In this document: one piece after another, positions 8,863-40,452 of the stretch
How positions within the stretch are numbered: the stretch's first letter is position 1
Layout: every line of letters starts with the position of its first letter
Assembly (NCBI RefSeq): GCF_001632775.1
Contig: NZ_CP015249.1
Span: 3,824,686 to 3,888,685, forward strand
Direction of reading: 5' to 3'
Length of the DNA: 64,000 nucleotides
Source: Dokdonella koreensis DS-123
GTDB lineage: Bacteria > Pseudomonadota > Gammaproteobacteria > Xanthomonadales > Rhodanobacteraceae
The notes under the pieces: model-generated
Seen by the model: only the letters and a program-made list of their open reading frames with translations
Database searches by the model: none
What the model was told of the DNA's origin: nothing
Program-made: the position numbers and the translations under genes

Positions 8863-10224
8863 ATGCGCCTCCTCTCGACGATCGCCGTCCTGGGCCTGCT
8901 GGCCGGCACGCCCGTGGGCGTGGGTGCGGCCCCGGTCCTGGTCACGCTGGACGATGCCGGCCCGCAGGCCGTACAGGCGCTCAAGCAGGCCCCCGGTGTC
9001 GCCTGGTGGGCGGAGTTCGGCGACCGGCTGCTGCTGGTAGGCGACACCGATCGCGTGCTGCAGTCGCGCGGCGCGGCGCCGATGCAGGTGCTCGACGGCA
9101 TCGACCCGGATCGCCTGTTCCTGCACGCCGCCAGCTGTGCGCACGGCGTGGACGGCGACACCCCGCATGCGGATCCCGGCCTCCCGATCGCCCGCGTCGG
9201 CCATTGGGAGCTGCGCGCGTTGCGCGCCGGCGAGACGCTGCCCACCGCTGACAACAGCCATTGGCAGCCGCTGCCCCGCAACCGCGTCGCCATCGAGCGC
9301 TATCGCGGCAGCGGTGCGGCGGCCGATCCGCTGGTGCTGCCGCTGGTGGCGGCGATCGACCCGGCACGCTGGTACGCCGGCGTCGAGACGCTCGCCGCCT
9401 GGGACCGCAACAGCTTCGGCAGCGGCATCGTCCTGGCGCGCGACTGGATCGGCGGCGCGTTCGCCGCGACCGGCCTGGCCGTGACGCTGCCCGCGTTCAC
9501 GCTGCAGGGCCGCACGCTCAACAACGTCGTCGGGGTCTGGACCGGCACGCGCCGGCCGGACGAGTGGGTGATCGTCGGCGGCCACTATGATGCGATCCAG
9601 TCCGGCGGCGGCAGCGGCGCCATCGCACCGGGCGCCGACGACAACGCCTCCGGCTGCTCGGGCGTGATCGAGCTGGCACGCGCGCTGACCGCATTCCGGC
9701 CGCAGCGCACCGTGGTCTTCGTCTGCTACTCCGGCGAGGAACAGGGCCTGCACGGCAGCATCGCCCATGTGGCGGCGCTGCGCAGCGGCGGCGACCTGGC
9801 CAAGGTCACGGCGATGATCAACATGGACATGATCGGCTACAGCCGCGACGGCACGTTCGACGTGCTGCTGGAGACCAACGGGCAGAACCGCGCGTACATC
9901 GAGCGCTTCGCCGCCGTCGCCGCCGCCTACGCACCGGAGCTGGGTACCTTGCTCAGCACCAATCCGTTCGGATCGGATCATGTCCCGTACTTGCAGGCCG
10001 GTGTGCGCGCGCTGCTGACGATCCAGGGCGACGACACCACCTATCCGCACTACCACCGCGCGACGGATACCCCGGCGAACATGGATGCCGGCGGCTGGTC
10101 GCAATCGATCGGCGGTGCGATCCTGCGCATGAACGCGGCGATGCTGGCGGAACTGGCCGGGGCCGGCGACCGCGTCTTCGCCGACGGCCTCGACCCCGGG
10201 GACAACGGCGCCGCGGGCCGGTAG
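8863..10224 (+). CDS. Secreted M28 family metallopeptidase
   Basis: The protein has 453 residues. A signal peptide starts MRLLSTIAVLGLLAG, then comes a pro-region of about 180 residues and an M28 (aminopeptidase Ap1/Y-like) domain. The di-zinc site is complete: His241 (GGHYD), Asp259 (GADDNASG), catalytic Glu292 and ligand Glu293 (SGEEQG), Asp322 (NMDMIG) and His398 (HRATDT). It should remove N-terminal residues from peptides outside the cell or in the periplasm. An in-frame ATG at 8827 was rejected because it lies inside a GCTAnnnT promoter-like box at 8821-8828 and would bury the signal peptide. The C-terminus carries RVFADGLDP, a variant of the FA(D/N)GF tail motif. Confidence 0.88.
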   Translation: MRLLSTIAVLGLLAGTPVGVGAAPVLVTLDDAGPQAVQALKQAPGVAWWAEFGDRLLLVGDTDRVLQSRGAAPMQVLDGIDPDRLFLHAASCAHGVDGDTPHADPGLPIARVGHWELRALRAGETLPTADNSHWQPLPRNRVAIERYRGSGAAADPLVLPLVAAIDPARWYAGVETLAAWDRNSFGSGIVLARDWIGGAFAATGLAVTLPAFTLQGRTLNNVVGVWTGTRRPDEWVIVGGHYDAIQSGGGSGAIAPGADDNASGCSGVIELARALTAFRPQRTVVFVCYSGEEQGLHGSIAHVAALRSGGDLAKVTAMINMDMIGYSRDGTFDVLLETNGQNRAYIERFAAVAAAYAPELGTLLSTNPFGSDHVPYLQAGVRALLTIQGDDTTYPHYHRATDTPANMDAGGWSQSIGGAILRMNAAMLAELAGAGDRVFADGLDPGDNGAAGR

Positions 10225-10248
10225 CGGCACGCGGCCGCGAGGAAAACG

Positions 10249-10803
10249 ATGGCGACGACGATCGGATTGATCCTGGTGGCGGCGGCACTGGCGTGGGCCG
10301 TGCTCGTCTTCAACCGCCTGGTCCGGCTGCGCAACCAGATGCGCAATGCCTGGGCCGACATCGACGTCCAGCTCACGCGCCGGCACGACCTGGTGCCGCA
10401 GCTGGTGACGGCGGTGCAGGCCTATGCCGCGCACGAGCGGAGCGTGCTGGAAGCCGTGACCACGCTGCGCGGCGAGGCGCTGGGCCTGCGCAGCCCGGCA
10501 CGGCTGGCCTCGGTCGAGGCCGCGCTGGAGCAGGCGCTCGGCCGCGTGCTGGCATTGAAGGAAGCCTATCCGGACCTCAAGGCCAGCGAGCAGTTCATGC
10601 AGCTGCAGCAGGGCCTGGTGGACGTGGAAGAGCACCTCCAGTACGCACGGCGCTACTACAACGGCGCCGTGCGCGACTACAACGACGCGGTCCAGCGCGC
10701 GCCGGACCTCCTGGTCGCGCGCGGCTTCGGCTTCGCGGCCGGCGAGTTCTACCAGGCGCGCGAAGACGAACGGCCGGCCGTGCAGGTGGAGGTATCGCGA
10801 TGA
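10249..10803 (+). CDS. LemA family protein
   Basis: The protein has 184 residues: one N-terminal membrane helix (about 4-22), then a long helical domain with the LemA signatures RNAWADIDVQLTRRHDLVPQL and the later tract with YYN and VRDYN. LemA proteins are membrane-anchored four-helix bundles of unclear function found throughout bacteria. The stop overlaps the next gene's ATG (ATGA), so it is translationally coupled to a DUF2207 protein, a frequent pairing for the family. Unlike the second LemA at 31.1 kb it has no lipobox. Confidence 0.88.
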   Translation: MATTIGLILVAAALAWAVLVFNRLVRLRNQMRNAWADIDVQLTRRHDLVPQLVTAVQAYAAHERSVLEAVTTLRGEALGLRSPARLASVEAALEQALGRVLALKEAYPDLKASEQFMQLQQGLVDVEEHLQYARRYYNGAVRDYNDAVQRAPDLLVARGFGFAAGEFYQAREDERPAVQVEVSR

Positions 10804-12533
10804 AGACCCGATGCAACGCCGTCCTGGTCCGGCTCCTCGCCGGCATTGCCGGCCTGGCGCTGGCAGCCGCGACCGTCCAGGCCGACGAACGGATCCTCGC
10901 CTACGACAGCGAGGTGCAGATCGAGGCGAACGGCGACCTGACGGTCACCGAGCACATCACCGTGCGCGCCGAGGGCGACCAGATCAACCGTGGCATCTAC
11001 CGCGATTTCCCGACCCGCTACAAGGATCGCTACGGCAATCGCGTCGTCGTCGATTTCCAGATGCTCGGCGTCGAGCGCAACGGCGTCGAGGAACCGTGGT
11101 TCATCAAGCGCAAGGCCAACGGCCTGCGCATCAACACCGGCAGCGACGCCTTCATCGAGCGGCCGGCCGTGCACCGTTTCACGCTGCGCTACCGCACCTC
11201 GCGGCAGATCGGTTTCTTCGCCGACCACGACGAGCTGTACTGGAACGCGATCGGCACCGGCTGGGTGTTCCCGATCGACAGCGGCCAGGTCGAGGTCCGG
11301 CTGCCGCAGCCGGTCCCGACCGACCGGCTGCGCGCCGAGGGCTTCACCGGCGCACAAGGCGCCAAGGGCCAGGCCTACCAGGCCACGCTGCCGGCACCCG
11401 GCACCGCCCATTGGCAGCTGACCGCCCCGCTCGCACCGCGCGAGGGGTTCACGGTCGTGCTGTCGTTCCCGAAGGGCCTGCTGGCCGAGCCGACGCGCGA
11501 CCAGCGCATCGGCTGGTTCTTCCGCGACAACCGTGGCGTGCTGATCGCGCTGGCCGGCCTGCTGGTCCTGGCCGGCTACTGCGTGCTGCGCTGGCGGCGT
11601 GTCGGCCGTGATCCGAAGCCCGGCGTCATCATCGCGCGCTACGAGCCGCCGGCGGACCAGCCTGCCGCCGCCCTGCGCTACATGCGCAAGATGGCCTACG
11701 ACACGCGCTGCTTCAGCGCCGGCGTGCTCGAGCTGGCGGTGGCCGGCGTGCTGCGCATCGACCAGCAGCCGGCCGCGGACGACAAGGAGGGCTGGTCGCT
11801 CGTCCGCATCGGTACCGCCCCACTGCCGCCAACCCAGGCCGCGCTGGCCGAGGCGCTGTTCAAGGACGGCGACCACCTGGAACTCAAGAGCGAGAACGCC
11901 TCGCGCCTGCAGGGCGCGCGGACGGCGCACGGCAAGGCGCTGGAGCAGGCGTTCAACCCGGCCTTGTTCGTGCGCAACGGCACCAGCATCGTGGTCGCGT
12001 TCCTGATCGCGATCGCCGCCACGGTACTGGCGTTCGCGTTGTCCGGTGGCGGCGGCATCCCGCTGATCATGGCGCTGTCCGCCGCGATGCTGGCGGTCGC
12101 GCTGTGCTTCGCCTTTCTGGTGCATGCGCCGACGCCGGCCGGGCGGCAGCTGCTGGACCATATCGAGGGTCTCGGCCGCTACCTCGGCGTGGCCGAACGC
12201 GACGAACTGGCCGGTCTGCAAGGTCCGCCGGCACCGGCGCTCGACGCCGATCGCTACCAGCACCTGCTGCCCTATGCGGTGGCGCTGGACGTGGAGGAAG
12301 CCTGGACGCGCCGGTTCACCCAGGCCGTCGGCGCCGCCGCCGCCGCCGCGGCCACCAGCGCCATCGCCTGGTACCACGGGCACCACGGCATGAACCCGGC
12401 CGGCTTCACGCAGGCGCTGGGCACCGGCCTCAGCGCGACGATCGCCTCGGCGTCGACACCGCCCGGCAGCGCGTCGGGTGGTGGCGGCTTTTCCGGTGGC
12501 GGCGGCGGTGGTGGGGGCGGCGGCGGCCGCTGA
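10800..12533 (+). CDS. DUF2207 membrane protein with Gly-rich tail
   Basis: The protein has 577 residues. A signal peptide (about 1-28, ending VQADE) leads to an extracytoplasmic DUF2207 beta domain with the family motif DLTVTEHITVRAEGDQINRG near its N-terminus. A membrane helix follows (about 239-258), then a cytoplasmic segment, a helical pair (about 398-440) and a final tail of almost pure Gly with Ser and Phe (GGGGFSGGGG). DUF2207 proteins have no established activity. Coupling with lemA implies they act together at the envelope. The tail resembles that of the TPM protein at 30.2 kb, the partner of the other LemA. Confidence 0.85.
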   Translation: MKTRCNAVLVRLLAGIAGLALAAATVQADERILAYDSEVQIEANGDLTVTEHITVRAEGDQINRGIYRDFPTRYKDRYGNRVVVDFQMLGVERNGVEEPWFIKRKANGLRINTGSDAFIERPAVHRFTLRYRTSRQIGFFADHDELYWNAIGTGWVFPIDSGQVEVRLPQPVPTDRLRAEGFTGAQGAKGQAYQATLPAPGTAHWQLTAPLAPREGFTVVLSFPKGLLAEPTRDQRIGWFFRDNRGVLIALAGLLVLAGYCVLRWRRVGRDPKPGVIIARYEPPADQPAAALRYMRKMAYDTRCFSAGVLELAVAGVLRIDQQPAADDKEGWSLVRIGTAPLPPTQAALAEALFKDGDHLELKSENASRLQGARTAHGKALEQAFNPALFVRNGTSIVVAFLIAIAATVLAFALSGGGGIPLIMALSAAMLAVALCFAFLVHAPTPAGRQLLDHIEGLGRYLGVAERDELAGLQGPPAPALDADRYQHLLPYAVALDVEEAWTRRFTQAVGAAAAAAATSAIAWYHGHHGMNPAGFTQALGTGLSATIASASTPPGSASGGGGFSGGGGGGGGGGGR

Positions 12534-12553
12534 TCCGCGCCACCGCCACGCTT

Positions 12554-12568
12554 GCTCCCGGCGGGAGC
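12554..12568 (+). terminator. Small hairpin after the LemA/DUF2207 pair
   Basis: GCTCCC and GGGAGC form a 6-bp stem with a 3-base loop, followed after a few bases by CATTCTTT. It lies 20 bases after the DUF2207 stop. It is a weak terminator candidate because the T-tract is interrupted. Confidence 0.3.
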
Positions 12569-12612
12569 GATCGTCATTCTTTCCGCGTCATCCGCCGGCC
12601 GCCCGCACTTGC

Positions 12613-15141
12613 ATGATCGCTCCCGACGCCGCCGTCCGTCGTTCGCCGCTGCTCGGCCACTACGAGCTGGACCCGGCGCGGCACCATGAACTGCTCGACG
12701 CGGACGGCGAGCTGCGGCCGCACTGGGGCCATTTCATGGCCGGCATCGAGCGCAGCGGGCCGGCCCAGATGCGCCACCGCCTGGACCTGGTGGCGCGGCA
12801 GATCCGTGAGAACGGCGTCACCTACAACGTCTACGCCGATGCCAAGGGTGCCGATCGCCCCTGGGAGCTGGACCTGCTGCCGCAGATCATCGAAGCGGAC
12901 GACTGGGAAGCCCTGGCAGCCGGCATCGCCCAGCGCGCGCGCCTGCTCGACCGGGTACTGGCCGACCTGTACGGCCCGCAGACGCTGCTCGCCGGCGGGC
13001 TGCTGCCGCCGGAACTGATCTTCGGCCACGACCATTTCCTCTGGCCCTGCCAGGGCGTCGTGCCGCCGGGCGGCCGCCACCTGCACCTGTACGCCGCCGA
13101 CCTGGCGCGCGCGCCGGACGGCCGCTGGTGGGTGGTCGCGGACCGCACCCAGGCGCCGTCCGGCGCCGGCTACGCGGTGGAGAACCGGCAGATCATCTCG
13201 CGCGCGTTCCCCGAGCCGTTCCGCGACCTGCGCGTGCAGGACATCGGCGGGTTCTTCCGGACCCTGCAGACCACGCTGGAGCAGCTCGCGCCCGCCGCTG
13301 CCGGCGAGAGCCCGCTGGTCGTGCTGCTGACGCCCGGCCGCTTCAACGAGACCTATTTCGAGCACGTCTACCTGGCGCGCCTGCTCGGCATGCCGCTGGT
13401 GGAAGGCCAGGACCTCATCGTGCGCGCCGACACGGTCTTCATGAAGACCCTCGGCGGCCTGCGGCGCGTGCACGCGATCCTGCGCCGCGTCGACGACGAC
13501 TTCTGCGACCCGCTGGAACTGCGCGACGATTCGGCGCTGGGCGTGCCGGGCCTGCTGGCCGCCGTGCGCGCCGGCCGCGTGCTGGTCGCCAATGCACTGG
13601 GCAGCGGCGTGCTCGAGTCGCCCGGCCTGCTCGGCTTCCTGCCCGCGGTCTGCGAGCGGCTGCTGGGCGAGCCGCTGGCGCTGCCGGCGGTGGCCACCTG
13701 GTGGTGCGGCGAGCCGCCGGTCTGCGCCGAGGCGCTGGCGGAGCTGCAGCGCCTGGTCGTCAAGCCGGCCTTCCCGGCGCGCCGCGCCGATCCGCTGTTC
13801 GGCCCGGAACTCGGTCGCAGCCGCCTCAACGAACTGCGCGCCCGCATCGCCGCCGCACCGGGCCACTGGGTCGCGCAGGAACTGGTCCAGCTGTCGCAGG
13901 CCCCGGTCTGGCAGCGCCAGCACGCACGCGGCGCGATCGTCCCGCGCGCGATCAGCCTGCGCGTCTATGCGGTCGCCACCCCCGGCGGCGGCTACCAGGT
14001 CATGCCCGGTGCGCTGTCGCGCATCGCGGCCAAGGCCGGCGCGCCGGTGGTGTCGATGCAGCGCGGCGGCGGCAGCAAGGACACCTGGGTGCTGGCGCCG
14101 GCCCGCGCCGCCGGCGCCGAACCGCCGCAGCGGCGGCCGCTGGGCGCGCGCGACATCATCCGCCGCGACCAGTTCCTGCCGTCGCGGCTGATCGAGAACC
14201 TGTTCTGGACCGGCCGCTACGCCGAGCGCAGCGAGGACACGACGCGGCTGCTGCGCGTCGTGCTGGCCCGCTACGTCGAGACCGCCGGCGGCACCACGCC
14301 GGCCCTGGCCGCCGCGCTCGACACCTGCCGTCACCTGGAACTGGTCGCGGCGGATCGCCCGGTGCGCGAGGCGCTGTTCGCAGCCGTCACCGACACGTCC
14401 TCGCCCAACAGCCTGGCCAGCGTGCTGGCGGGCCTGTTCTGGTCGGCCGCGCAGGTGCGCGGCCGCCTGTCACAGGAGAACTGGCGCGGCCTGGTGGAGA
14501 TCCAGCGCGAAACGCAGGCGCTGACGCGCGACCGCGCCGACCTCGGCGAGACGCTGGACCTGCTCAACCGCGTGCTGATGGCCACCTCGGCCCTGGCCGG
14601 CTTCGCGTTCGACGACATGACCCGCGACGACGGCTGGCGCTTCCTGGTGATCGGCCGGCGCATCGAGCGGTTGCAGTTCGTCGCCGACGTGACGGCCTGG
14701 CTGCTGCGGCACCGGCCGCAGGCCGACGCGGCAACGCTCGAATGGCTGCTCGAGCTGGCCGACAGCATCATCACCTACCGCATGCGCTACCTGTCGCCGC
14801 CGCAGCTGATCCCGACGCTCGACCTGATCGTCTGCGATCCCGCCAATCCGCATTCGGTGGTGTTCCAGGCGCTGGAACTGGCGCGCGAGCTGGGCAGCGT
14901 GGACGCCGAGTTCGGCAGCCGCTGCGCCGAGCGCTTCGCGGCGGTCGCCGGCCGCCTGGGCGCCTGCGACCTGTCCGCGCTGGAAGAATCGCTGTTCGGC
15001 GAGGGCCTGCGCGCCGATGCCGGCGACGCGATCGCCGACCTGCTGGCCGGCAGCGCCGCGATCGCGCGCGAGGTATCCGACGAGCTGGCACTGCGGCACT
15101 TCGCGCACGTCGACGTCAGCCAGCCCACCGTGTCGGCCTGA
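12613..15141 (+). CDS. Circularly permuted ATP-grasp (type 2) fused to alpha-E domain
   Basis: The protein has 842 residues. The first about 490 form a circularly permuted type-2 ATP-grasp domain (DUF407-like), recognisable from VTYNVYADAKGADRPWELD, DRTQAPSGAGYAVENR, LTPGRFNETYFEHVYLAR and VKPAF. From about 520 an alpha-E helical domain (DUF403) follows, with SRLIENLFWTGRYAERSEDT. In many genomes the two are separate genes. Comparative genomics places them with a transglutaminase in predicted amide-bond-forming or peptide-tagging systems. Here the transglutaminase gene follows after 3 bases. The substrate is unknown. Confidence 0.9.
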   Translation: MIAPDAAVRRSPLLGHYELDPARHHELLDADGELRPHWGHFMAGIERSGPAQMRHRLDLVARQIRENGVTYNVYADAKGADRPWELDLLPQIIEADDWEALAAGIAQRARLLDRVLADLYGPQTLLAGGLLPPELIFGHDHFLWPCQGVVPPGGRHLHLYAADLARAPDGRWWVVADRTQAPSGAGYAVENRQIISRAFPEPFRDLRVQDIGGFFRTLQTTLEQLAPAAAGESPLVVLLTPGRFNETYFEHVYLARLLGMPLVEGQDLIVRADTVFMKTLGGLRRVHAILRRVDDDFCDPLELRDDSALGVPGLLAAVRAGRVLVANALGSGVLESPGLLGFLPAVCERLLGEPLALPAVATWWCGEPPVCAEALAELQRLVVKPAFPARRADPLFGPELGRSRLNELRARIAAAPGHWVAQELVQLSQAPVWQRQHARGAIVPRAISLRVYAVATPGGGYQVMPGALSRIAAKAGAPVVSMQRGGGSKDTWVLAPARAAGAEPPQRRPLGARDIIRRDQFLPSRLIENLFWTGRYAERSEDTTRLLRVVLARYVETAGGTTPALAAALDTCRHLELVAADRPVREALFAAVTDTSSPNSLASVLAGLFWSAAQVRGRLSQENWRGLVEIQRETQALTRDRADLGETLDLLNRVLMATSALAGFAFDDMTRDDGWRFLVIGRRIERLQFVADVTAWLLRHRPQADAATLEWLLELADSIITYRMRYLSPPQLIPTLDLIVCDPANPHSVVFQALELARELGSVDAEFGSRCAERFAAVAGRLGACDLSALEESLFGEGLRADAGDAIADLLAGSAAIAREVSDELALRHFAHVDVSQPTVSA

Positions 15142-15144
15142 CCC

Positions 15145-16068
15145 ATGAATGCCCGGACCCGACCGCGGCCGGACCACGCCCGCTACCGCGTGGTGCACGA
15201 GACCGAGTACCGCTATTCGAGCACCGTGTCGATGTCGCGGCAGACGGCGCACCTGGCGCCGCGCGACTGCCCCTGGCAGCGCAACCTGCGCCATGCGCTG
15301 CGCGTCGAGCCGCAGCCCACCTACCGGCATGCGAGCACGGACTGCTTCGGCAATCCGCTGGTTCGCCTGGAGATCGACCAGCCGCATCGCACGCTGCTGG
15401 CCGTCGCCGAATCGGACGTGGAGATCCGCGCGCGGACGCTGCCGGGCGACCCCGCGGCGTCGCCGGCCTGGGAGGCGGTGGCCGACCACCACGCCTATCG
15501 CGCCGGCCGCGTCCCCGATGCCGCCGCGCTGGAAGCCTACCGCTACCGGGCCGACTCGCCGTTCGTGCGCACCGGCATCGAGCTTGCGGACTTCGCGCGG
15601 GACTGCTTCGCGCCCGGCACGCCGCTGCTGGTCGCGGTCCGCCGGCTGATGAGCGCGATCCACCGCCAGTTCCGCTTCGACACCGAGGCGACCCAGGTCG
15701 CCACGCCGCTGCTCGACGTGCTCGCGCAGCGGCGCGGCGTCTGCCAGGACTTCGCGCACCTGATGATCGGCTGCCTGCGTGCGTTCGGCCTGCCGGCGCG
15801 CTACGTCAGCGGCTACCTGCTGACCACGCCGCCGCCCGGCCAGCCGCGCCTGATCGGCGCCGATGCCTCGCACGCCTGGGTGTCGGTCCATTGCCCGGGA
15901 CAGGGCTGGATCGACTTCGACCCGACCAACGACGTCCTGCCCGATCTGGGCCACGTGACCGTCGCCTGGGGACGCGACTTCGGCGACGTCTCGCCGCTGC
16001 GCGGCGTGATCCTCGGCGGCGGCGCCCACGAACTCGACGTGCGCGTGACGATGACGCCGCTCGGCTGA
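15145..16068 (+). CDS. Transglutaminase-like cysteine protease-fold protein
   Basis: The 307-residue protein has an N-terminal beta domain typical of bacterial transglutaminases (YRVVHETEYRYSSTVSMSRQ). The core domain carries the likely triad Cys200 (RGVCQDFAH), His243 (SHAWVSV) and Asp259 (DFDPTND). It has no signal peptide, so it is probably cytoplasmic. Bacterial members of this family usually hydrolyse or rearrange amide bonds rather than crosslink proteins. It starts 3 bases after the ATP-grasp/alpha-E gene. It ends 22 bases from the convergent diguanylate cyclase. Confidence 0.88.
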   Translation: MNARTRPRPDHARYRVVHETEYRYSSTVSMSRQTAHLAPRDCPWQRNLRHALRVEPQPTYRHASTDCFGNPLVRLEIDQPHRTLLAVAESDVEIRARTLPGDPAASPAWEAVADHHAYRAGRVPDAAALEAYRYRADSPFVRTGIELADFARDCFAPGTPLLVAVRRLMSAIHRQFRFDTEATQVATPLLDVLAQRRGVCQDFAHLMIGCLRAFGLPARYVSGYLLTTPPPGQPRLIGADASHAWVSVHCPGQGWIDFDPTNDVLPDLGHVTVAWGRDFGDVSPLRGVILGGGAHELDVRVTMTPLG

Positions 16069-16090
16069 GCCCCGCGCCGGGCGTGCCCGC

Positions 16091-18247: not shown

Positions 18248-19648
18248 TCAGCTTTCCGGCACGTAGTGCACGCTGCAGATCCGCCCGTCGGCCGTCCGCA
18301 CGAGCAGGCGTTCGACGACGCCGGACGCGCCGCGCCGCACGGCGGCCGGCAGCGCGAACGGACAGTCGCTGCCCGCCGGCGCACCCGATTCGGCCGCCAC
18401 GCGATGCACCGGCGGCGCTTCGAAGTCGTCGGCGAAGAGCGGATCCGGGACGAGGTCCGGATCGTAGAGCTGTGCTCCGCCGCGCGGCACAGGCGGGTTG
18501 TCCGGGTCCAGGCCCCCGGCGACCAGCGCACGGCCGTCCGGCAGCGGCGCAACCACATGGTAGAGGTGCTTCCTCAGCATCGGCAGCCCGCCGGCGAGCG
18601 TGCCGCCGGCGACGTCGTACACGTCCGCCGAGGCCGCCAGGCCGCCGTCGCCGCCGGCGAACAGCACGGAACCGCCGGCCAGGGTCACGGCGAGGCCGAA
18701 GATCGGCCGATCGGGAACCGGCGTGCCCACGGCGGTGAACGTCCCGGCAGCCGGATCGAGGACCTCGACGGCCGCCGGCACGAGCGTCTGCTGCGCGTCG
18801 AGCGCTCCGTAGGCGACCAGCACGCGGCCGTCCGCCAGCGCGGCGGCTGCATGCCCGGCACGGGCGGTGGCCATCGTGCCGGCCAGCGGCACCAGCGCAC
18901 CGGTGACGGGATCGAAGCGCTCGGCGGTCGCCAGCGGGTGGTTGACGATCGTGACCGCGCCGCCGTCGTCGATGAATTCCTCGCGGTTGCCGCCGATCAC
19001 GACCGCGCCGCCGTCGACGAGCGCCGTGACCGTCGCCAGGCCACGCGAGGAACTCAGCGTCCCCGCGGCGACGAACTGGCCGGTGGCCGGGTCGTAGAGT
19101 TCCACCACGTCCGTGTCGCGCAGCGTGAACACGCCGCCGCCGAGGTCCGCGCAGGGATTGCAGCCGCGACCGCCGGCGACGATGACGCGTCCGTCGGCGA
19201 GCAGGGTCGCCGACGCGAGGTCACGCTCCACCAGTGGCGCGGCGGTCGCCGTGAAGGTGCCGGTGACCGGGTCGTAGAGTTCCGCCAGGGTCGGCGGCAC
19301 GTCGTTGAGCGGCGCGAACAGGTCGCCGCCGTTGAACACCAGCACGCGGCCGTCCGCCAACCGCACGGCGGTGTGGTCCTGGCGCGCGGTGAGCATGTCG
19401 CCGGTCGCCGTGAAGGTGCCGGTGGCCGGATCGTAGAGCTCGGCCTTGCGCGTCTTGGACGCCGCGGCCGGGCTGATGCGGCCGCCGGTGATCAGCACCC
19501 GGCCGTCCGCCAGCGGCGTGGCGACCGCCTTCTGCCGTGCGGTGACCATCGTGCCGGTGGCGACGAAGCCGCCGGCGGCTGCGGGCGGCAGGCCGGCGCC
19601 GAGCGCGAGGATGAGTAGGAATGGACCTGGAACGTTTCGGAAGCGCAT
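18248..19648 (-). CDS. Secreted kelch-repeat beta-propeller protein
   Basis: The protein has 466 residues. A signal peptide (MRFRNVPGPFLLILALGAG) is followed by seven repeats of the kelch core, of the type LADGRVLITGG, LADGRVIVAGG and LPDGRALVAGG, one per predicted blade. Between them recur ELYDPATGTFTATG units. This predicts a seven-bladed kelch propeller used for binding. After the propeller comes PDPLFADDFEAP, a variant of the FA(D/N)GF motif, then a further about 60 residues with two cysteines that may form a disulfide. The ligand is unknown. It is encoded upstream of the diguanylate cyclase on the same strand, with 126 bases between. Confidence 0.82.
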   Translation of the reverse strand: MRFRNVPGPFLLILALGAGLPPAAAGGFVATGTMVTARQKAVATPLADGRVLITGGRISPAAASKTRKAELYDPATGTFTATGDMLTARQDHTAVRLADGRVLVFNGGDLFAPLNDVPPTLAELYDPVTGTFTATAAPLVERDLASATLLADGRVIVAGGRGCNPCADLGGGVFTLRDTDVVELYDPATGQFVAAGTLSSSRGLATVTALVDGGAVVIGGNREEFIDDGGAVTIVNHPLATAERFDPVTGALVPLAGTMATARAGHAAAALADGRVLVAYGALDAQQTLVPAAVEVLDPAAGTFTAVGTPVPDRPIFGLAVTLAGGSVLFAGGDGGLAASADVYDVAGGTLAGGLPMLRKHLYHVVAPLPDGRALVAGGLDPDNPPVPRGGAQLYDPDLVPDPLFADDFEAPPVHRVAAESGAPAGSDCPFALPAAVRRGASGVVERLLVRTADGRICSVHYVPES

Positions 19649-31129: not shown

Positions 31130-31140
31130 CGGCGTGCCCG

Positions 31141-32354: not shown

Positions 32355-34253
32355 TCAACCGGCCGCCAGGATCTTCTGGCGGCGCAGCTGCGCGAGGACC
32401 TGCTCGACCGCCCGGTCGACGTCGGTGTCCTCGGTCCGCACGTGGACCTCGGCTGCCTCCGGCGCCTCGTACGGCGAGTCGATGCCGGTGAAGTTCTTCA
32501 GCTCGCCGCGGCGGGCCTTGGCGTACAGGCCCTTGGGGTCGCGCCGTTCGACGGTGGCCAGCGGCGTGTCGACGTAGACCTCGACGAACTCGCCCTCGGC
32601 GACACGCCGGCGCGCCAGCGCGCGCTCGGACCGGAACGGCGAGATGAACGCACAGATGACGACCAGGCCGGCATCGACCATCAGGCCGGCGACCTCGGCG
32701 ATGCGGCGGATGTTCTCGACGCGGTCGGCGGCGGTGAAGCCCAGGTCCTTGTTGAGACCGTGGCGCACGTTGTCGCCGTCCAGCAGGTAGGTGTGGACGC
32801 CGAGCGCGTGCAGGCGCTGCTCGAGCCGGTTGGCGATCGTCGACTTGCCGGAACCGGACAGGCCGGTCAGCCAGACCACGCCGGGGCCGTGGCCGTTGCG
32901 GTGCGCGCGCGCCGCCTTGTCGAGCGCGAGCGCCTGCCAGTGCACGTTCTGCGAGCGGCGCAGCGCGAAGTGCAGCAGGCCGGCCGCGACCGTGCGGTTG
33001 CTGACGCGGTCGATCACGATGAAGCTGCCCATGTCGCGATTGTCGGCATAGGGGTCGAACGGCACGGTGCGGTCCAGCGTCAGCGTGCAGACGCCGATCG
33101 CGTTCAACGCCAGCGTCCGCGCCGCCAGGTGATCGAGGCTGTCCGGGTCGACCTGGTACTTGGGCGGGCCGAGCGCACCGCCGGTGGTGGTGGCGCCGAG
33201 CTTCACGAGGTAGCCGCGCCCCGGCAGCATCGGCGCCTCGTCCATCCAGACCACGGTCGCCTCGAACTGGTCGGCAACGGCCGGCGGAGCGGCCGCGGCG
33301 GCGATGACGTCGCCGCGGCTGACGTCGACCGCCTCGGCCAGTGTCAGCGTGACCGACTGGCCGCGGACCGCCTCGTCGAGGTCGCCCGCATAGCCGACGA
33401 TGCGCTCGACCGTCGCGGCGTGGCCGGACGGCAGTACGCACACGGCGTCGCCGGGACGCACGCGGCCGCCGAGCACGCGGCCGGCATACCCGCGGAAGTC
33501 CGGGCCGGGCCGGTTGACCCACTGCACCAGGAAACGCAGCGGCGCCTCGTCCGGCAGCGCGTCGACCACCACCGATTCGAGGTGCCCGATCAGGCTCGGC
33601 CCGCGGTACCACGGCGTGTTCGGGCTGGGTGCCGCGACCATGTTGTCGCCGCGCAGCGCCGACAGCGGGATCGCGACGACCGCCTCGAGGCCGATGCGCG
33701 CCGCGAACGCGCGATAGTCCGCCTCGATCCGCTCGAACGCCTCGCGCGAGTAGTCCACCAGGTCCAGCTTGTTGACCGCCAGCACCACGTGGCGGATGCC
33801 GAGCAGCGCGACCAGGTGGCTGTGCCGGCGCGTCTGCGTCAGCACGCCCTGGCGCGCGTCGACCAGGATCACCGCCAGGTCCGCCGTGGAGGCCCCGGTG
33901 ACCATGTTGCGCGTGTACTGCACGTGGCCCGGCGTGTCGGCGACGATGAACCGCCGCTGCGGCGTCGCGAAGAACCGGTAGGCCACGTCGATCGTGATGC
34001 CCTGCTCGCGCTCGGCCGACAGGCCGTCGACCAGCAGGGCGAAGTCCAGGTCCGTGCCCTGCGTGCCGAGCCGCCGCGAATCGGCGGCCAGCGCGTCGAG
34101 CTGGTCTTCCAGCAGCGTGCGCGTGTCGTAGAGCAGCCGGCCGATCAGCGTGCTCTTGCCGTCGTCCACGCTGCCGCAGGTGATGAAGCGCAGCAGGCCC
34201 TGCGCCGGCGCGGTCTGCGCGGCGTCGCCGGCCGATGCGGTCCGTGTCGCCAT
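32355..34253 (-). CDS. cysNC: Bifunctional sulfate adenylyltransferase subunit 1 / APS kinase (CysN-CysC)
   Basis: The protein has 632 residues. The N-terminal about 440 form the CysN GTPase, with G1 [10 protein letters not shown]3 DTPGH and G4 NKLD, which drives sulfate adenylylation by CysD. The C-terminal about 190 form CysC, with P-loop [19 protein letters not shown] and FISPFR, which phosphorylates APS to PAPS. The fusion is common in Xanthomonadales. The ATG overlaps the cysD stop (ATGA). Together with cysD it carries sulfate activation for cysteine synthesis and sulfation. Reductase genes are not in the window. Confidence 0.97.
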
Positions 34254-35155
34254 CAGAAGTAGCCCTCGGCCTTCTTCTTCTCCATCGAGCCGCTGCTGTC
34301 GTGGTCGATCAGGCGGCCCTCGCGCTCGCTGGTGCGGGCGCGCAGCATCTCGGCGATCACCGCCTCGACGGTGTCGGCCTGCGACTCGATCGCCGCCGTC
34401 AGCGGCCAGCAGCCCAGCGTGCGGAAACGCACCGTCCGCAGCACCGGCGTCTCGCCCTCGGCCAGCGGCATGCGATCGTCGTCGACGACGATCAGGCGGC
34501 CCTCACGCACCACTACCGGCCGTGGCGCGGCGAAGTACAGCGGCACGACCGGGATCTGCTCGCGCGCGATGTACTGCCACACGTCCAGCTCGGTCCAGTT
34601 CGACAGCGGGAACACACGCAGGCTCTCGCCTGGGTGCTTGCGCGTGTTGTACAGCCGCCACAGCTCCGGCCGCTGCGCCTTCGGATCCCAGCGGTGCTGC
34701 GCATTGCGGAACGAGAACACGCGTTCCTTCGCGCGCGACTTCTCCTCGTCGCGCCGCGCGCCGCCGAAGGCGACGTCGAAGCCGTGCCGGTCCAGCGCCT
34801 GCTTGAGACCCTGGGTCTTCCAGAGGTCGGTATGCAGCGCCGAGCCATGCGTGAACGGACCGATGCCCTGCGCCTGTGCGTCCGGATTGCGATGCACGAT
34901 CAGCGCCATGCCCGCCTCCTGCGCCATGCGATCGCGCAGCGCGTACATCGCGCGGAACTTCCAGGTGGTGTCCACGTGCAGCAGCGGGAACGGCGGCCGC
35001 GCCGGGAAGAACGCCTTGCGCGCCAGGTGCAGCATCACGGCGCTGTCCTTGCCGACCGAGTACAGCATCACCGGCCGCTCGGCCTCGGCCACCGCCTCCC
35101 GCAGGATGTCGATGCTTTCGGCTTCCAGGGCGTCGAGGTGGCTCAAGGCGGGCAT
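34253..35155 (-). CDS. cysD: Sulfate adenylyltransferase subunit 2 CysD
   Basis: The protein has 300 residues, the family length. The PP-loop [17 protein letters not shown] binds ATP, and the signatures [26 protein letters not shown] and the C-terminal [21 protein letters not shown] region are all present. It adenylylates sulfate to APS, powered by GTP hydrolysis in CysN. It is first in the cysD-cysNC operon. The ATG at MPALSHL is preferred to an upstream in-frame start at 35197. Confidence 0.96.
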
Positions 35156-35234
35156 CGGGCGATTGTAGGCGCGGCCGCGACGGCCGTCATGGCGCACCGC
35201 CGGGATCGTGCCGCCGGGATCGCGCTGGCGAGAA

Positions 35235-35978
35235 TCAGGAATCGGGACCCGCCTGCCGGGCGCGCCGGCGCGCCCACAGGTTCAGCGACTCGACCGCGAT
35301 CGAGAAGCCCATCGCGAAATAGACGTAGCCGCGCGGGATGTGCAGCTCGAAACCGTCGGCGATCAGCACCATGCCGACCAGGATCAGGAACGCCAGCGCC
35401 AGCATGCGGATGGTGGGATGGTTGTCGATGAACTCGCCGACCGTGTTGGCCGCGAAGATCATGACCGCCACCGCCAGCACGATCGCCGCGACCATGATCG
35501 GGATCTGGTTGACCATGCCCACCGCGGTGATCACCGAGTCGAGCGAGAACACGATGTCGATCACCGCGATCTGGGCGATGACGAAGCCGAACGAGGCGAA
35601 CACGCGCCCTTCCTCGCTGTCGCCGCCGCGCGCGCCTTCGAGCTCCTGGTGGATCTCCATGACCGCCTTGACCAGCAGGAACAGGCCGCCGGCCACCAGG
35701 ATGATGTCGCGCAGCGAGATCACCTGGCCCGCCGCGGTGAACAGGCCCATGCGCTCGTCGTCGAAACCCGCCAGCGTCGCCAGCACCAGCAGCAGGGCGA
35801 TGCGCGTGATGCAGGCCAGGGCCAGGCCCACCCGGCGCGCGGCCGGCCGCTGCGCCGGCGCCAGCCGGCTGACCGCGATCGAGACGAAGACCAGGTTGTC
35901 GACGCCCAGGACGATCTCCAGCGCCGCCAGCGTGAGCAGCGCGATCCAGGCCTGCGGGTCGGAGAGGAGTTCGATCAT
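35235..35978 (-). CDS. TerC-family integral membrane protein
   Basis: The protein has 247 residues and about seven hydrophobic segments. Two acidic motifs lie within helices: [14 protein letters not shown] near residue 20 and [13 protein letters not shown] near residue 145. These are the signature of TerC/Alx/YgdQ-type proteins, several of which export manganese. Length fits the YgdQ/YoaE branch rather than the longer Alx type. The exact substrate cannot be read from sequence. No tellurite genes are nearby. It stands as a single gene. Confidence 0.9.
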
Positions 35979-36088
35979 CGGTGCTGGTAAGGGCTGGAAT
36001 CAGGCCGCGCGCGCGGCGGGCACGGCGTCACGGGGCCCGCGCCGCAACGGCGCGCCCGCGTGGCATCGCGGCGGCACCGGCCACTGCA

Positions 36089-36460
36089 TCAGCCGAAGCG
36101 CTGCCAGAGGATCAGCCCCCAGCACAGCGCGACGTTGACCAGCAGCAGGAACACCGCCGCCGATCCCATGTCCTTGGCACGTCCGGCCAGCTCGTGGAAC
36201 TCCGGGCTGACCTTGTCCACCACCGCCTCGACCGCCGAGTTGAGCAGCTCCATCGCCAGCACCAGCAGCAGGCTGCCGGCCAGCAGCGCCTTCTCGACGG
36301 CGCCCTGGCCGAGCCACAGTCCGGCCGGCAGCAGCACCACGCAGACCAGTACTTCCAGCCGGAACGAGGCCTCGTACGACCAGGCTGCGCGCAGTCCCTT
36401 CCAGGACCACTTCAGCGCCCGGACGATCTGGCGCGGGCCGCGCGGCTCGATGCTCGGCAT
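36089..36460 (-). CDS. dgkA: Diacylglycerol kinase DgkA
   Basis: The protein has 123 residues and three membrane helices. The catalytic block MELLNSAVEAVVD places Glu71, Asn74 and Glu78 where E. coli DgkA has Glu69, Asn72 and Glu76. It phosphorylates diacylglycerol released during membrane-derived oligosaccharide or LPS modification, recycling it to phosphatidic acid. It follows gcvPB by 21 bases on the same strand, a spacing that suggests shared transcription without functional relation. Confidence 0.95.
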   Translation of the reverse strand: MPSIEPRGPRQIVRALKWSWKGLRAAWSYEASFRLEVLVCVVLLPAGLWLGQGAVEKALLAGSLLLVLAMELLNSAVEAVVDKVSPEFHELAGRAKDMGSAAVFLLLVNVALCWGLILWQRFG

Positions 36461-36481
36461 GTCGCCCGTCCGCCGACGCGC

Positions 36482-37945
36482 TCAGGCCGCCGCGGGCGAT
36501 TGCCAGGCGATGTCCAGCTCGCGCGCGGCCTTGACGTCGTCGAGGCGGCGCACCGGCATCGTCAGCGGCGCGTCCTTCATCGCCTGCGGATCGGACGCCG
36601 ACAGGGCCAGCAGCTCGGTCATGACCTCGACGAAACCGTCCAGCGTCTCCTTGCTCTCGGTCTCGGTCGGCTCGATCAGCAGACACTCGGGCACCAGCAG
36701 CGGGAAGTAGTTGGTCGGCGCGTGGATGTTGCGGTCGAGCAGGCTCTTGGAGAAATCCAGCGCGGTGATGCCGTTGGCCTTCTTCTGGCGCGCGACCGTC
36801 ACGATGAACTCGTGGCTGGCGCGGCGCTCGGGATAGGCCAGGTCGAAGCCGGCATCGGCCAGGCGGCGTGCCAGGTAGTTGGCGTTGAGCGTGGCGTACT
36901 CGGCGACGCGGCGCATGCCCTCGCGGCCGAGCAGGCGGGCGTAGATGTACGCGCGCAGCAGCACGCCGGCATTGCCGGCGAACGTGGTCAGCCGGCCGAT
37001 CGACAGCGGGCGGTCCTTGCGGCGCACCCAGCCGTAGCGGCCGTCGTCCTTCTTCTCGATCATCGGCACCGGCAGGAACGGCTTGAGGCGCTCGGACACG
37101 CCGACCGCACCCGCGCCCGGACCACCGCCGCCGTGCGGCGTCGAGAAGGTCTTGTGCAGGTTCATGTGGATCGCGTCGAAACCCATGTCGCCCGGACGCA
37201 CCTTGCCGAGGATCGCGTTGAGGTTGGCGCCGTCGTAGTAGAGCAGGCCGCCGGCCTCGTGCACGAGCCTGGCGATCTCCTGGATGCGCCGCTCGAACAC
37301 GCCGATCGTGGACGGGTTGGTCAGCATGATGCCGGCGGTCTTCGGGCCCAGCGCCTTCTTGAGCGCCTCCACGTCGATGTCGCCGTCGTCCTTGGTCGGG
37401 ATCTCGCGCACCGTGCAGCCGCACATCGTCGCCGTGGCCGGGTTGGTGCCGTGGGCGGCGTCCGGCACGATGATCTCGGTGCGCTCGGTGTCGCCGCGGT
37501 GCCGGTGGTAGGCGACGATCATCGCCACGCCGGCCAGCTCGCCCTGGGCGCCGGCCATCGGCGCCAGCGACACGCCGCCCTTCATGCCGGTGACGTCGGC
37601 GAGGATCTCCTGCAGGTCGTACATGCAACCCAGGAAGCCCTGGCTCAGCGACTCGGGCGCATACGGATGGCGCGCCAGGAAGCCGTCCAGCATCGCCAGC
37701 GTGTGGCAGGCGCGCGGGTTGTACTTCATCGTGCACGACCCGAGCGGATAGAACTGCGTGTCGATCGAGAAGTTCTTGCGCGACAGGTTGGTGTAGTGGC
37801 GGACCGTCTGCAGTTCCGACACTTCCGGCAGCGCGGGCGGCGTCTGCCGGCGCAGGCTCGCGGGGAGGTCGGACGGGATCGCGGTATCGGCCGGAAGCTG
37901 CGCGGCCGCGGTGCGGCCGGGCTGGGAAAGCTCGAAGATCAGCAT
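36482..37945 (-). CDS. gcvPB: Glycine dehydrogenase (decarboxylating) subunit 2
   Basis: The 487-residue PLP enzyme is the C-terminal half of P-protein in organisms with split GcvP. PLP attaches to Lys265 in [16 protein letters not shown]. Other marks are [14 protein letters not shown]-type sequence ([14 protein letters not shown]) and [11 protein letters not shown]. With subunit 1 it decarboxylates glycine and passes the aminomethyl group to GcvH. The partner gcvPA and gcvH/gcvT are not in this window, so the system is scattered. It is divergent from the PAP2 phosphatase gene. Confidence 0.95.
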
Positions 37946-38113
37946 GGACAGGCACGCCAGGTGAGGAAAAATCAGCGCGCAATGATGCCACAAAGCACCC
38001 CGGCCACGCCGCCCGCGGCATGCCGCCGCCCGGGTGCCGATGCCCGCGCCGGCACCCGGGCGGACCCGACGCGGGGGTCGCCCGCTACGATAGGCCACCT
38101 TTCCCCGGAACCG

Positions 38114-38755
38114 ATGCGCATGAGCCGACGCCTGCTGCTGTGGACCGCCGCGATCGCCGCGGCGCTGATGCTGGCGGGCCTGGCCGGCCTGGACTATCCG
38201 CTGGCGCGCGCGATCCGCGCCGCCGGGCTGGAGAACGCGGCGCTGTTCCGCGAGGGCCTGGCCGTGCTCGACACCGCGCTCGGCATGCACCTGTGGTTCT
38301 GGCTGGCCGGCGTGGCGGCGATCGGCATCGGCCTGGTCGCCCTGGCCTGGAAGCGCCTGCCCCTGCCGCCCCGGCTGGGGGCCGTCCTGCTCGCCGCCGG
38401 CCTGGTGCAGGTGGCCACGATCGCGACGATGATCCAGGGCAAGGACGCCTTCGGCCGGCTGCGTCCGTTCCAGGTGCTCGAATCGGGCGACTGGTCGCGG
38501 ATCTGGTTCGCCGGCGGCGGCTCGTTCCCGTCCGGCCATGCGGCGTTCTACTTCGGCCTGTTCCTGCCGCTGGCCGCGGTCGCGCGACCGGTCTGGCTGC
38601 GCGTGGTGCTACTGGCGATCCCGCTGTTCGTGGTCGTCGCGCGGATCGACCTCGCACGGCATTTCCTGTCCGATGTCGCCACGTCGGCGCTGATCGCCGC
38701 GCTGTATGCGCTTCTGGCTTCGTTCGCATTCCGTCGCTGGCTGCCACCGCGCTGA
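38114..38755 (+). CDS. PAP2-family membrane phosphatase
   Basis: The protein has 213 residues and five or six membrane helices. All three motifs of the lipid phosphatase/phosphotransferase superfamily are present: KDAFGRLRP, then SFPSGHAAF, then [13 protein letters not shown], although the expected Ser of the third motif (SRxxxxxH) is Ala. It probably removes phosphate from a lipid such as phosphatidate, PgpB type, or undecaprenyl pyrophosphate. A second ATG two codons on is equally possible. GCTACGAT at 38084-38091 is a likely -10 box. Confidence 0.88.
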
Positions 38756-38842
38756 ACGAGGCTCGCAGCGACGTTGCGACGAACCCCTTCGCCTCTTCCG
38801 TCGCATAACAAACCAGCCCTGCGGGTGACCGACTCGGGCCGG

Positions 38843-38871
38843 TTGTGACATCGCCACGGGCTAGGTAGGCT
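38843..38871 (+). promoter_or_regulatory. Promoter of the island protease gene
   Basis: TTGTGA (38843-38848), a 17-base spacer, then TAGGCT (38866-38871). The same TAGGCT serves the methionine operon promoter. An AGGGGAAACAGGG stretch before the ATG supplies the ribosome site. Confidence 0.45.
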
Positions 38872-38895
38872 GCGTGAGTCACAGGGGAAACAGGG

Positions 38896-40452
38896 ATGCA
38901 CATCGTGCAACGACCGCTATTGATTTCGTTCTTTTTTGCGTGTGCGGGATTCACGGCTACCGCGTCGGCCAGCGAGCAGGAACAGGCGCCACGCCTGTTC
39001 GTCACGACCGAAAAACAACCTCCTCCTTCCGAACCCGGTCCCTGGCTGCAAAGCTGGCACATCACCATCGATCAGCAGGCCATCCAGCAGCCGGCCGAGA
39101 CGATCACTCTGAATGTTCCGGGCCAGCGCGAGATCGTCGTGCGACAGATGTACTGGTCGCCGAAGGCCGGCTATCTCTCGCAGTTGGTTGGTGATGGCCC
39201 TGAAGTCATCTGGCTACCAGATCCGAGCGCGAAGCCGGACGACTTCGCTTGGGAGTGGTACGGCCGCTCCGAAGGCCATACGGTCTCGATCGTCTTCAAC
39301 TACGGCGTGATCGCCGCACGTATCTGGACCCCCGAGCACAAGTACGCCTTGCAGCCCAGGCCGGGCGATGTCACCGAGCTGGCCGAGGTCAATCCGGACT
39401 GGTGGCAGATGCATCCGGATCGCGAGGAGCAGCACCCTGGTCAAGCGGCAACCGACACGCCGCTTCACGGCACTCCCGATGGTCTGACCCCGTCCGGGCC
39501 ACCCACCTGGGACCTTGGTTGCACGGCCCCACTGCCGACGACGGCGAGCACGATCGATGTGCTGGTGATGTATACGACGGACGTACTCGGCCAGTATGGT
39601 TCTCATGCTGGCGTCGAGACAGAAGCGATCAGAGCGATCAAAGATGCCAACGATAGTTTGCGAAACAGTGGCATCTGGTCGGTGCGCTTCTTTCTACGCG
39701 GCGTGGAACAGGTTCCACCACCGGCTGATCCCTTTTTCAACTATGGGCTAGTCAACATAGAGCAAGCCATGTTCCATCTTGCAGGCGTTCAGGGTACGAC
39801 CACGAATTATCCAGGTTGGATTTACAACGGTAATCCGGCGGTCAGCAGCCGACGCAATGCGCTACAGGCGGATGTGGTCGCACTGGCCCGCATAGATATC
39901 TCCGGTGATGACACATGTGGCGTCGCCTTCGTACAGCGTTTGTATGACTTGATTGGCGGCAGAATCGAACCCGGACCGGAGTTCGAGCGCAAGTCTTACC
40001 TTGTCTTCGATCCGCGCTGCGGTGTCGACCGGCTTAATCTCGCACACGAACTCGGTCATTTACTCGGCATGGAACACGACCCGCGCAATGCCGGCATGCC
40101 GGGCACCGCCTTTACGTCATGTCCTTGGTCCTATGGGCATCGCAACTCCAGCTCCAATCCCAATGCGGCCTTTCGTACCGTGATGTCGTACGCTGACATG
40201 GGCAGCGGCTCCGGGCCAATCTGCACCGGGAAGCACGCGTGCCCACTGATCGATGCCTACTCCAATCCAGCCTATGCGTGGAACGGTGCGATCGTTCCAA
40301 ACCCCACCCCAGGTGCTCTACCCATCGGCGTCGCGACGGGAGGATCTGCGGGACCCGCAGCGCGAGCGAACGATACCCTTGCGCGACTGGCACCCATCGT
40401 CGCTGCATTCCGGACCAGACCAGACCTGATCTTCGCCAATGGATTCCAATAG
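38896..40452 (+). CDS. Secreted metzincin metalloprotease
   Basis: The protein has 518 residues. A signal peptide (MHIVQRPLLISFFFACAGFTATASA) and a pro-region of about 190 residues precede the catalytic domain. The zinc site HELGHLLGMEHD gives His384, Glu385, His388 and His394, and a Met-turn VMSY follows, so this is a metzincin (reprolysin/M12B-like). Paired cysteines flank the site. The protein ends exactly with DLIFANGFQ, the clearest example in the window of the FA(D/N)GF tail. Base composition is clearly lower in G+C than the neighbours. It overlaps the next gene by 14 bases. Confidence 0.85.
   Translation: MHIVQRPLLISFFFACAGFTATASASEQEQAPRLFVTTEKQPPPSEPGPWLQSWHITIDQQAIQQPAETITLNVPGQREIVVRQMYWSPKAGYLSQLVGDGPEVIWLPDPSAKPDDFAWEWYGRSEGHTVSIVFNYGVIAARIWTPEHKYALQPRPGDVTELAEVNPDWWQMHPDREEQHPGQAATDTPLHGTPDGLTPSGPPTWDLGCTAPLPTTASTIDVLVMYTTDVLGQYGSHAGVETEAIRAIKDANDSLRNSGIWSVRFFLRGVEQVPPPADPFFNYGLVNIEQAMFHLAGVQGTTTNYPGWIYNGNPAVSSRRNALQADVVALARIDISGDDTCGVAFVQRLYDLIGGRIEPGPEFERKSYLVFDPRCGVDRLNLAHELGHLLGMEHDPRNAGMPGTAFTSCPWSYGHRNSSSNPNAAFRTVMSYADMGSGSGPICTGKHACPLIDAYSNPAYAWNGAIVPNPTPGALPIGVATGGSAGPAARANDTLARLAPIVAAFRTRPDLIFANGFQ

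Follow-up and report, generated by a model that had tools for sequence, protein, structure and literature searches.

Why should three secreted proteins that are otherwise unrelated end in nearly the same few residues? The question is raised by a stretch of 64,000 nucleotides from Dokdonella koreensis DS-123 (contig NZ_CP015249.1, positions 3,824,686 to 3,888,685; hereafter the window), in which a sequence-only reading had picked out a metzincin, an M28 peptidase and a kelch protein with a shared C-terminal motif. All three tails are present in the sequence where that reading placed them, and they belong to a tag that is a genome-wide C-terminal signal, more extensive than the three cases in the window. 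A sorting role of this tag is strongly supported; that it is a linear C-terminal targeting signal read by a second type II secretion system (T2SS), one whose GspC carries a PDZ domain, is in our judgment about evenly poised. The window carriers and their tags are:

8866..10224, + strand: secreted M28 aminopeptidase that has a signal peptide and, at its C-terminus, the tag (Pfam Peptidase_M28, 1.6e-38)
10168..10197, + strand: M28 tag D-R-V-F-A-D-G-L-D-P, 8 residues ahead of the stop (from the sequence)
18248..19648, - strand: secreted kelch protein, start at an internal ATG (Kelch_6, 1.2e-16)
18419..18445, - strand: internal kelch tag D-P-L-F-A-D-D-F-E, followed by 56 residues with two Cys (from the sequence)
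38896..40452, + strand: secreted reprolysin-like metzincin that has a signal peptide and the tag (Reprolysin_5, 9.5e-10)
40423..40449, + strand: metzincin tag D-L-I-F-A-N-G-F-Q, abutting the stop (from the sequence)

A C-terminal tag on unrelated secreted proteins

The M28 peptidase ends in ...GDRVFADGLDPGDNGAAGR-stop and the metzincin, which reaches 1.5e-9 against the Mep72 model, far under the cut-off of that model, in ...RPDLIFANGFQ-stop; the F codons of their tags lie at 10177 (+) and 40432 (+), and that of the kelch tag at 18436 (-). The M28 and kelch forms look degenerate, and we count them as tags because close M28 relatives in tag-rich genomes (at least seven strict matches, see below) carry full or related forms. 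The tag consensus is D-x-[ILV]-F-x-[DN]-G-F-[DE], 0–12 residues ahead of the stop. In the D. koreensis genome (4.45 Mb, a single contig; G000, genus g1), the strict pattern TTYGCNRAYGGNTTY has 43 matches and its reversed control 1; the relaxed pattern F-x-[DN]-G-F-[DE] has 82 sites, again against 1 for the reverse. A pattern built for the three tails finds 4 matches in the window (the fourth at 52732, - strand) where 0.15 are expected (maximum 2 in 100 shuffles). The stop of the open reading frame (ORF) follows within 13 residues of the motif in 33 of the 43 strict matches; the remaining ten lie inside the protein or in frames that run on, and among these L052 terminates in another tail, IFGDGFEAAPPG.

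We also drew a motif-blind sample of 19 stretches of 20 kb each, spaced evenly over the genome, to which the window was added (444 kb, 334 complete genes from a retrained gene caller) and searched the last 25 residues of each protein for [ILVM]F-x-[DN]-[GDSN]-[FL]-[DEQG]. Tagged ends are found in 15 of the 334 genes (one in the window), compared to a shuffled mean of 0.04 and a maximum of 1 in 1000 shuffles, and elsewhere in the sampled proteins 3 matches occur in 4,375 other 25-residue blocks, one of them in the window kelch protein. The caller misses genes, the window metzincin included, and these counts hence cover called genes only. Crude scaling from 14 carriers per 380 kb would predict ~160 carriers of this looser form genome-wide. 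A chance origin of the tag is rejected by the strict-versus-reverse, window and shuffled-end counts. Among the papers listed from the open-licence literature that we searched, none deals with such a tag. Ten 36-residue tails have no NCBIfam match up to E 10 and a single irrelevant Pfam match (E 0.25); on the ten tails tested, the tag is a C-terminal signal without a matching Pfam or NCBIfam model.

The carriers look exported. A crude scorer finds a signal peptide in 29 of the 33 end-located carriers of the D. koreensis genome (at least two of the 29, L035 and L067, are doubtful), and two of the other four have their 5' end cut in the fetched stretch. In the sample, 13 of the 15 carriers have a recognizable or borderline signal peptide and the N-termini of the remaining two are ambiguous; the motif is not equally common in cytoplasmic proteins, the pattern that the sequence-only reading had named as evidence against a signal. 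Along their length 34 carriers are unrelated (mean column identity 8%). Their families, among the matches listed (25 of 51 NCBIfam and 25 of 59 Pfam families), include reprolysins, M28 and S8 peptidases, kelch, FG-GAP and delta-60 propellers, HAF repeats and endonuclease I; NCBI "choice-of-anchor" J is matched by four of the 34, choice-of-anchor D by two and NxxGxxAF by one (E <=1, among the matches listed).

The anatomy of the tag was described from 142 non-redundant tails, taken from all fetched loci with the core at most 12 residues from the stop (the upper limit set by the regular expression). Position -3 is D in 115 of the 142 and D or E in 127, and position -1 is I, L or V in 141; both positions are absent from every search pattern used to fetch the tails. 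The residue after the first F is mostly Ala, a preference inflated by the search patterns, and C, D, K, V, S, E and R occur too. The protein ends directly after the core in 88 tails (a share inflated by one search pattern), and the trailing residues of the others are mostly G, P, A, T, E and D. Synonymous codons vary at every motif position, which indicates that selection acts on the protein. That many genes of one clade bear the tag might also be expected of a short functionless sequence copied between 3' ends by recombination or duplication. Against such a sequence stand the codon variation, the unrelated upstream sequences of the carriers and the retention of the tag over deep divergence, from Marinicella stretches with a guanine-plus-cytosine (GC) content of 0.39–0.54 to others of up to 0.74, and we consider it highly improbable.

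In the AlphaFold model of the M28 peptidase (mean predicted local distance difference test score, pLDDT, 81.4; catalytic part mostly >80; Protein Data Bank matches to the Aeromonas/Vibrio aminopeptidase and Legionella LapA/LapB), the last confident helix spans residues 412–431, and residues 436–452 have pLDDT <50 and are predicted to be disordered. Two residues of its tag, D435 and F438, are invariant across 12 homologues. A tail predicted to be disordered and found on many folds would suit a structural or protective C-terminal cap, for example against periplasmic tail-specific proteases, with no role in sorting. However, the conservation at positions -3 and -1 is too specific for general protection, among the sampled proteins predicted to be soluble and exported only 12 of 91 are tagged, and the tag is nearly absent from sister genera; a cap is in our view improbable.

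No transmembrane helix follows the motif in the 33 end-located matches of the D. koreensis genome, all of which have at most 13 trailing residues, and the ends inspected there have no C-terminal basic cluster, a few ending in a single R or H. Internal tags with 184–301 further residues occur at L047, L051, L063, L066 and L091, and the window kelch protein is a small version of these cases. They represent either domain fusions or an internal signal that can be cleaved or read. In two loci from different genera (L059 and L407), the residues after an internal tag look similar by eye. The 0–12 residues after the core, together with the internal copies, suggest that what is recognized is an exposed strand or turn rather than a free C-terminal carboxylate. 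On the same grounds exact C-terminal recognition, the mode of DegS-type PDZ ligands, is unlikely.

Distribution of the tag and of a second T2SS

In a family panel of 197 genomes, strict matches number 15–103 in genus g247 (with one exception, 0), 16–58 in g235, 23–41 in g1, 21 and 21 in g237, and 0–16 in g229; the remaining 21 genera have 0–6. Where one locus per genome was opened, the match lay at a protein end in 21 of 25 rich genomes (the exceptions being L080, L085, L091 and L093) and in none of five poor ones. A class-level sample of 274 genomes has none except D. koreensis with more than six strict matches. Twenty stretches from nine of the sampled genomes contain 21 matches, most of which lie inside a protein or in tiny ORFs (three are ProA by eye); with a stop-linked pattern, L127 (G005, from another family) is the one locus of 30 that looks real. 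A wide spread across the Gammaproteobacteria is rejected on these counts.

Searches of named genomes returned at least 122 matches in at least 119 stretches. A crude tail test (an ORF of at least 100 residues, a hydrophobic residue before the motif, and a signal peptide or cut 5' end) was passed by 64 of the 80 matches listed from Lysobacterales, Marinicella or loosely named proteobacterial records, versus none of the 42 listed from other taxa. Relaxed matches versus control number 45–102 versus 5–10 in Marinicella genomes, 71 versus 0 in Chiayiivirga flava, 54 versus 0 in Tahibacter harae, 8 versus 0 in G005, 9 versus 6 in one Pseudomonas and 7 versus 0 in one Klebsiella; the single match opened in each of the last two genomes lies in a protein with no signal peptide. 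Protein-level conservation, position at the end, signal peptides, unrelated folds and a patchy occurrence of tagged genera against their sisters thus lend strong support to the earlier suggestion of a sorting or processing signal.

Besides an Xps-like system, tag-rich genomes tend to have a second T2SS, whose genes in D. koreensis lie at two loci:

C1 ~697.3-701.7 kb (L318:9271-13716), own genome: gspC2-D2-E2
C1 ~3,140.1-3,143.1 kb (L469:5067-8072), own genome: gspG2-K2

These components score higher against T2SS models than against those of type IV pili. GspE2 scores 687.6 bits (cut-off 630.25; PilB 513.4) and GspD2 561.5 bits (cut-off 351.35; PilQ 236.5), and the scores of GspG2 (185.6 bits; cut-off 88.85), GspH (87.2; 80), GspI (85.4; 44.35), GspJ (122.2; 64.85) and GspK (245.2; 130) all exceed their cut-offs. 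GspC2 falls under its cut-offs (83.5 of 150; 60.1 of 101.6), yet it contains a membrane helix, an HR domain and, at the C-terminus, a PDZ domain that is closest in sequence and structure to OutC, PulC and EpsC. A GspF-like protein is encoded close to the C-D-E genes in L322, L325, L326 and L327.

Tag and second T2SS largely occur together. By the secretin model TIGR02517, applied to 41 genomes, a second GspD (561–588 bits) is present in 16 of 17 tag-rich genomes, beside the Xps-like secretin that nearly all share, and absent from 22 of 24 tag-poor ones; the exceptions are G298 of genus g246, at 542 bits, and, from another family, G165, whose second GspD scores 547 bits and lies in a cluster of Xps-like gene order. 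In the family panel, 43 of the 197 genomes encode a relative at least 60% identical to the second GspD of D. koreensis (GspD2+). Tag-rich genomes make up 39 of these 43, compared to 3 of the 154 GspD2- genomes (p = 5e-33, Fisher test, which ignores relatedness). At a threshold of five strict matches the figures are 40/43 and 7/154; the extra four GspD2- genomes are from genus g238, where a relaxed match opened in each of three genomes was not a tagged end. Among genomes at least 90% complete, 29 of 32 GspD2+ and 1 of 136 GspD2- genomes are rich. Within genus g229, strict counts are 1–16 in ten GspD2+ genomes versus 0–2 in six GspD2- genomes (p = 0.003). The three GspD2+ genomes of this genus with fewer than seven strict matches (G361, G373 and G464) have 27, 14 and 25 relaxed matches versus controls of 1, 0 and 1; the GspD2- genomes G281, G304 and G334 have 2, 6 and 2 versus 3, 4 and 1. 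A second GspG scores above 170 bits in 14 of 16 rich genomes, G457 having a contig-cut one and G348 none.

On an XpsD tree of 38 rows, tag and GspD2 change together on the same two branches (the row of G364, with a branch length of 10 and probably a wrong reading frame, is to be disregarded). Among 28 genomes reached via tag-bearing named loci and G005, all but G470 and G474 encode a relative of GspD whose identity clearly exceeds the ~30% typical of Xps-like secretins, being 51–77% in Lysobacterales types and G005 and 43–50% in three Marinicella and the fragmentary metagenome-assembled genome (MAG) G478. A GspD tree draws 21 of its 22 GspD2-clade rows from tagged genomes (the exception is G427), with Marinicella and G005 outside the clade and g246 separate; some joins are unsure and branches long.

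Genes beside gspC2-D2-E2 recur as well. A Ser/Thr kinase gene lies near it at L318:15653-19190, and also in L322, L324 and L326, and a small gene that looks sigma-factor-like by eye lies near it in L318, L322 and L326; it is possible that the two are regulators.

Candidate readers of the tag

From this co-occurrence we infer that the second T2SS reads the tag. Carriers would cross the inner membrane by their N-terminal signal peptides, as read from sequence, and would fold in the periplasm with the tail as a flexible appendage, as AlphaFold predicts for one protein. The second T2SS would then recognize the tail, most likely through the PDZ-bearing GspC and/or the secretin GspD, and the folded carrier would use that secretin to reach the medium or the cell surface. 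GspC2 and GspD2 are proposed as the readers because the PDZ domain of GspC2 is akin to those of OutC, PulC and EpsC and because, in published work, the EpsC PDZ domain is needed for secretion of VesB in Vibrio and captured a fusion bearing the VesB immunoglobulin (Ig) fold (PMC12369372), and PelI interacts with GspC and GspD (PMC7949064). In those determinants (PelI loop 3, the VesB Ig fold; OutC/EpsC PDZ), as in our proposal, the GspC PDZ domain and GspD recognize a folded periplasmic substrate; unlike ours, they are described there as structural, with no common linear sequence, whereas here one linear motif is carried by dozens of proteins that differ in fold. The fullest form of the proposal, that one nine-residue motif bound by the GspC2 PDZ domain and/or GspD2 recruits ~80 or more unrelated folded proteins to a dedicated second T2SS, we put forward tentatively, as plausible but short of probable. 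The type II secretion that the sequence-only reading had offered as a possibility thus gains a co-occurring PDZ-GspC system, and with it support that is real though indirect.

A short portable motif found on dozens of proteins of differing fold and tracking one T2SS subtype would open substrate recognition to tests in which a few residues are added or removed. If the proposal is true, secretomes would be predictable from sequence in Dokdonella, Tahibacter, Rudaea, Chiayiivirga and their relatives, the tag could serve as a biotechnological export tag, and a linear signal would contrast with the prevailing view of T2SS signals as structural.

Several observations weigh against the second T2SS as reader. 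At the D. koreensis loci of the second system, to which the search was confined, GspF, GspL and GspM were not found. Only two independent transitions underlie the co-occurrence, so that shared ancestry with another gene is possible. Some tagged genomes have no detected GspD2: the tag-rich G383, G309 and G387, which are 85–90% complete, and G470 and G474. Conversely, G297 and G298 have a second GspG without tags (the GspG of G297 is canonical and its GspD below cut-off); G463, an 80%-complete MAG, is GspD2+ with 2 relaxed matches versus 1 for the control; genus g246, with GspD 42–47% identical, is tagless (relaxed versus control 2 versus 0 in G298 and 1 versus 1 in G315); and G427 (g239) has a GspD 54% identical and a T2SS-like operon with 1 relaxed match versus a control of 3. 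A second T2SS is therefore not sufficient for tags. In Marinicella, which is tagged, GspD is 42–48% identical to GspD2, outside its clade, no closer to it than that of g246 and little closer than those of Pseudomonas (40–42%) or Klebsiella (38–41%), and the matching system there is only canonical-like. Lastly, tagged genomes also encode secreted M28-domain proteins that lack the tag (L425, L427, L434, L435, L439 and L442). The ends of five of them (L434, L435, L427, L439 and L442) resemble C-terminal domains of the P-domain or PPC type; L440 and L428 apparently have such an end and a tag. The operon of G427 (L464) looks like a full second T2SS with a GspD2-clade secretin and no tags (GspD by BLAST, the rest by eye), and that genome is a natural contrast for the purpose of the tag.

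The same ancestry shared by tag and T2SS would also be seen if the tail were a processing or anchoring signal for a soluble periplasmic or outer-membrane transpeptidase or protease, as yet unfound, that would cut the carrier within or behind the motif and attach it to the surface, with the second T2SS co-inherited or acting downstream. The 0–12 trailing residues, and sometimes a longer stretch, could then be removable, and "choice-of-anchor" families, which elsewhere bear anchoring signals, occur among the carriers. Precedents exist in GlyGly-CTERM and MYXO-CTERM, which are reported to join T2SS export with C-terminal processing. Like the tag, GlyGly-CTERM (TIGR03501; Vibrio, Shewanella; paired with rhombosortase) is a C-terminal signal found on unrelated secreted proteins, several per genome and patchy by lineage, and is tied to T2SS export, as for VesB (PMC12369372). 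MYXO-CTERM (TIGR03901; Myxococcota; paired with myxosortase) resembles the tag in marking dozens of proteins in a genome and in having at least one internal copy, and its carriers reach the surface by way of a T2SS. PEP-CTERM/exosortase and LPXTG/sortase likewise place a short C-terminal motif on unrelated exported proteins.

The differences are of architecture. Sortase, exosortase, rhombosortase and myxosortase signals are described with a membrane helix and a basic cluster after the motif (PMC11980579, PMC3237569); in contrast, the tag has neither. For the surface attachment that the sequence-only reading had also raised, the customary anchor of helix and basic cluster is therefore missing. 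GlyGly-CTERM combines a Gly-rich motif with helix and basic cluster, whereas the tag is ~9 residues; the invariant lipidated Cys, membrane helix and Arg cluster of MYXO-CTERM are all absent here, as are the helix and basic tail of PEP-CTERM and LPXTG, whose motifs are unrelated. Curated C-terminal models of LPXTG, PEP-CTERM, GlyGly-CTERM and MYXO-CTERM do not match the ten tails, nor do the Por tail and C-terminal domain (CTD) models of type IX secretion, which are also missing from the families listed for the 34 carriers. Two carriers weakly match the SVAGG GlyGly-CTERM family (best E 0.012), but the tails match nothing, and kinship with GlyGly-CTERM was rejected. The intramembrane protease with which GlyGly-CTERM is paired has no counterpart identified here, rhombosortase families having been outside the search. 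Clustering of neighbouring genes (158 loci, 60 with a picked tag gene, 315 proteins) gave no clear partner, a weak negative since longest-ORF gene picking is unreliable at this GC; two recurrent untagged clusters of four loci each appeared, one a probable Ser/Thr kinase by eye. Taken together, we regard a processing or anchoring signal as unlikely. Even if the T2SS is not the reader, the tag remains a C-terminal signal without a relevant Pfam or NCBIfam model on the ten tails.

Orthologues and neighbours of the window carriers

Relatives of the M28 peptidase (E 1e-20) are present in 16 of 46 genomes. The closest (L415–L419, L421–L424, L430 and L431) come from tag-rich genomes and one Marinicella and have a tag or decayed form at the end: LFADGFQ, IFEDGFE, IFSDGFD, IFSDSFE, VFADAFD, IFADGLQ, IFGDGVD, IFADGAG, IFADL and IFSHDFD. 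The copy in G359 (L432/L437) is broken ahead of its end. Among more distant relatives in tagged genomes, a tag or close form is found in L428, L429, L433, L436, L438, L440 and L441. Absence of the tail from orthologues in relatives had been named by the sequence-only reading as evidence against a signal; it is seen in the only M28 relative from a tag-poor panel genome (G294, 31% identity), a thin comparison of one protein. Metzincin relatives occur in five genomes, all tag-rich, with six ends: IFANGFQ twice, IFLDNFQ, IFANNFQ, LFANGFN and IFASGFEP. Two G364 loci in the orthologue set gave identical ends.

A short ORF at C1 ~782.7 kb of the D. koreensis genome (L036) has an end like the metzincin tail and lies ~2 kb from a full metzincin paralogue. 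Among the 34 carriers, one matches an IS3 and one an IS481 transposase model; judged by sequence, the transposase-matching carrier is probably L036, where the end of a tagged gene thus seems to border on a mobile element. In the window, the metzincin is directly followed (40439-41884, + strand) by a secreted PD40 propeller protein. Its C-terminus combines a hydrophobic helix with an Arg cluster (...FVALLLGAWIALRRRRNTT); the architecture is that of a tripartite anchor, and the MYXO-CTERM model matches it only below threshold (E 0.6). A tagged and a helix-anchored exported protein are here encoded side by side.

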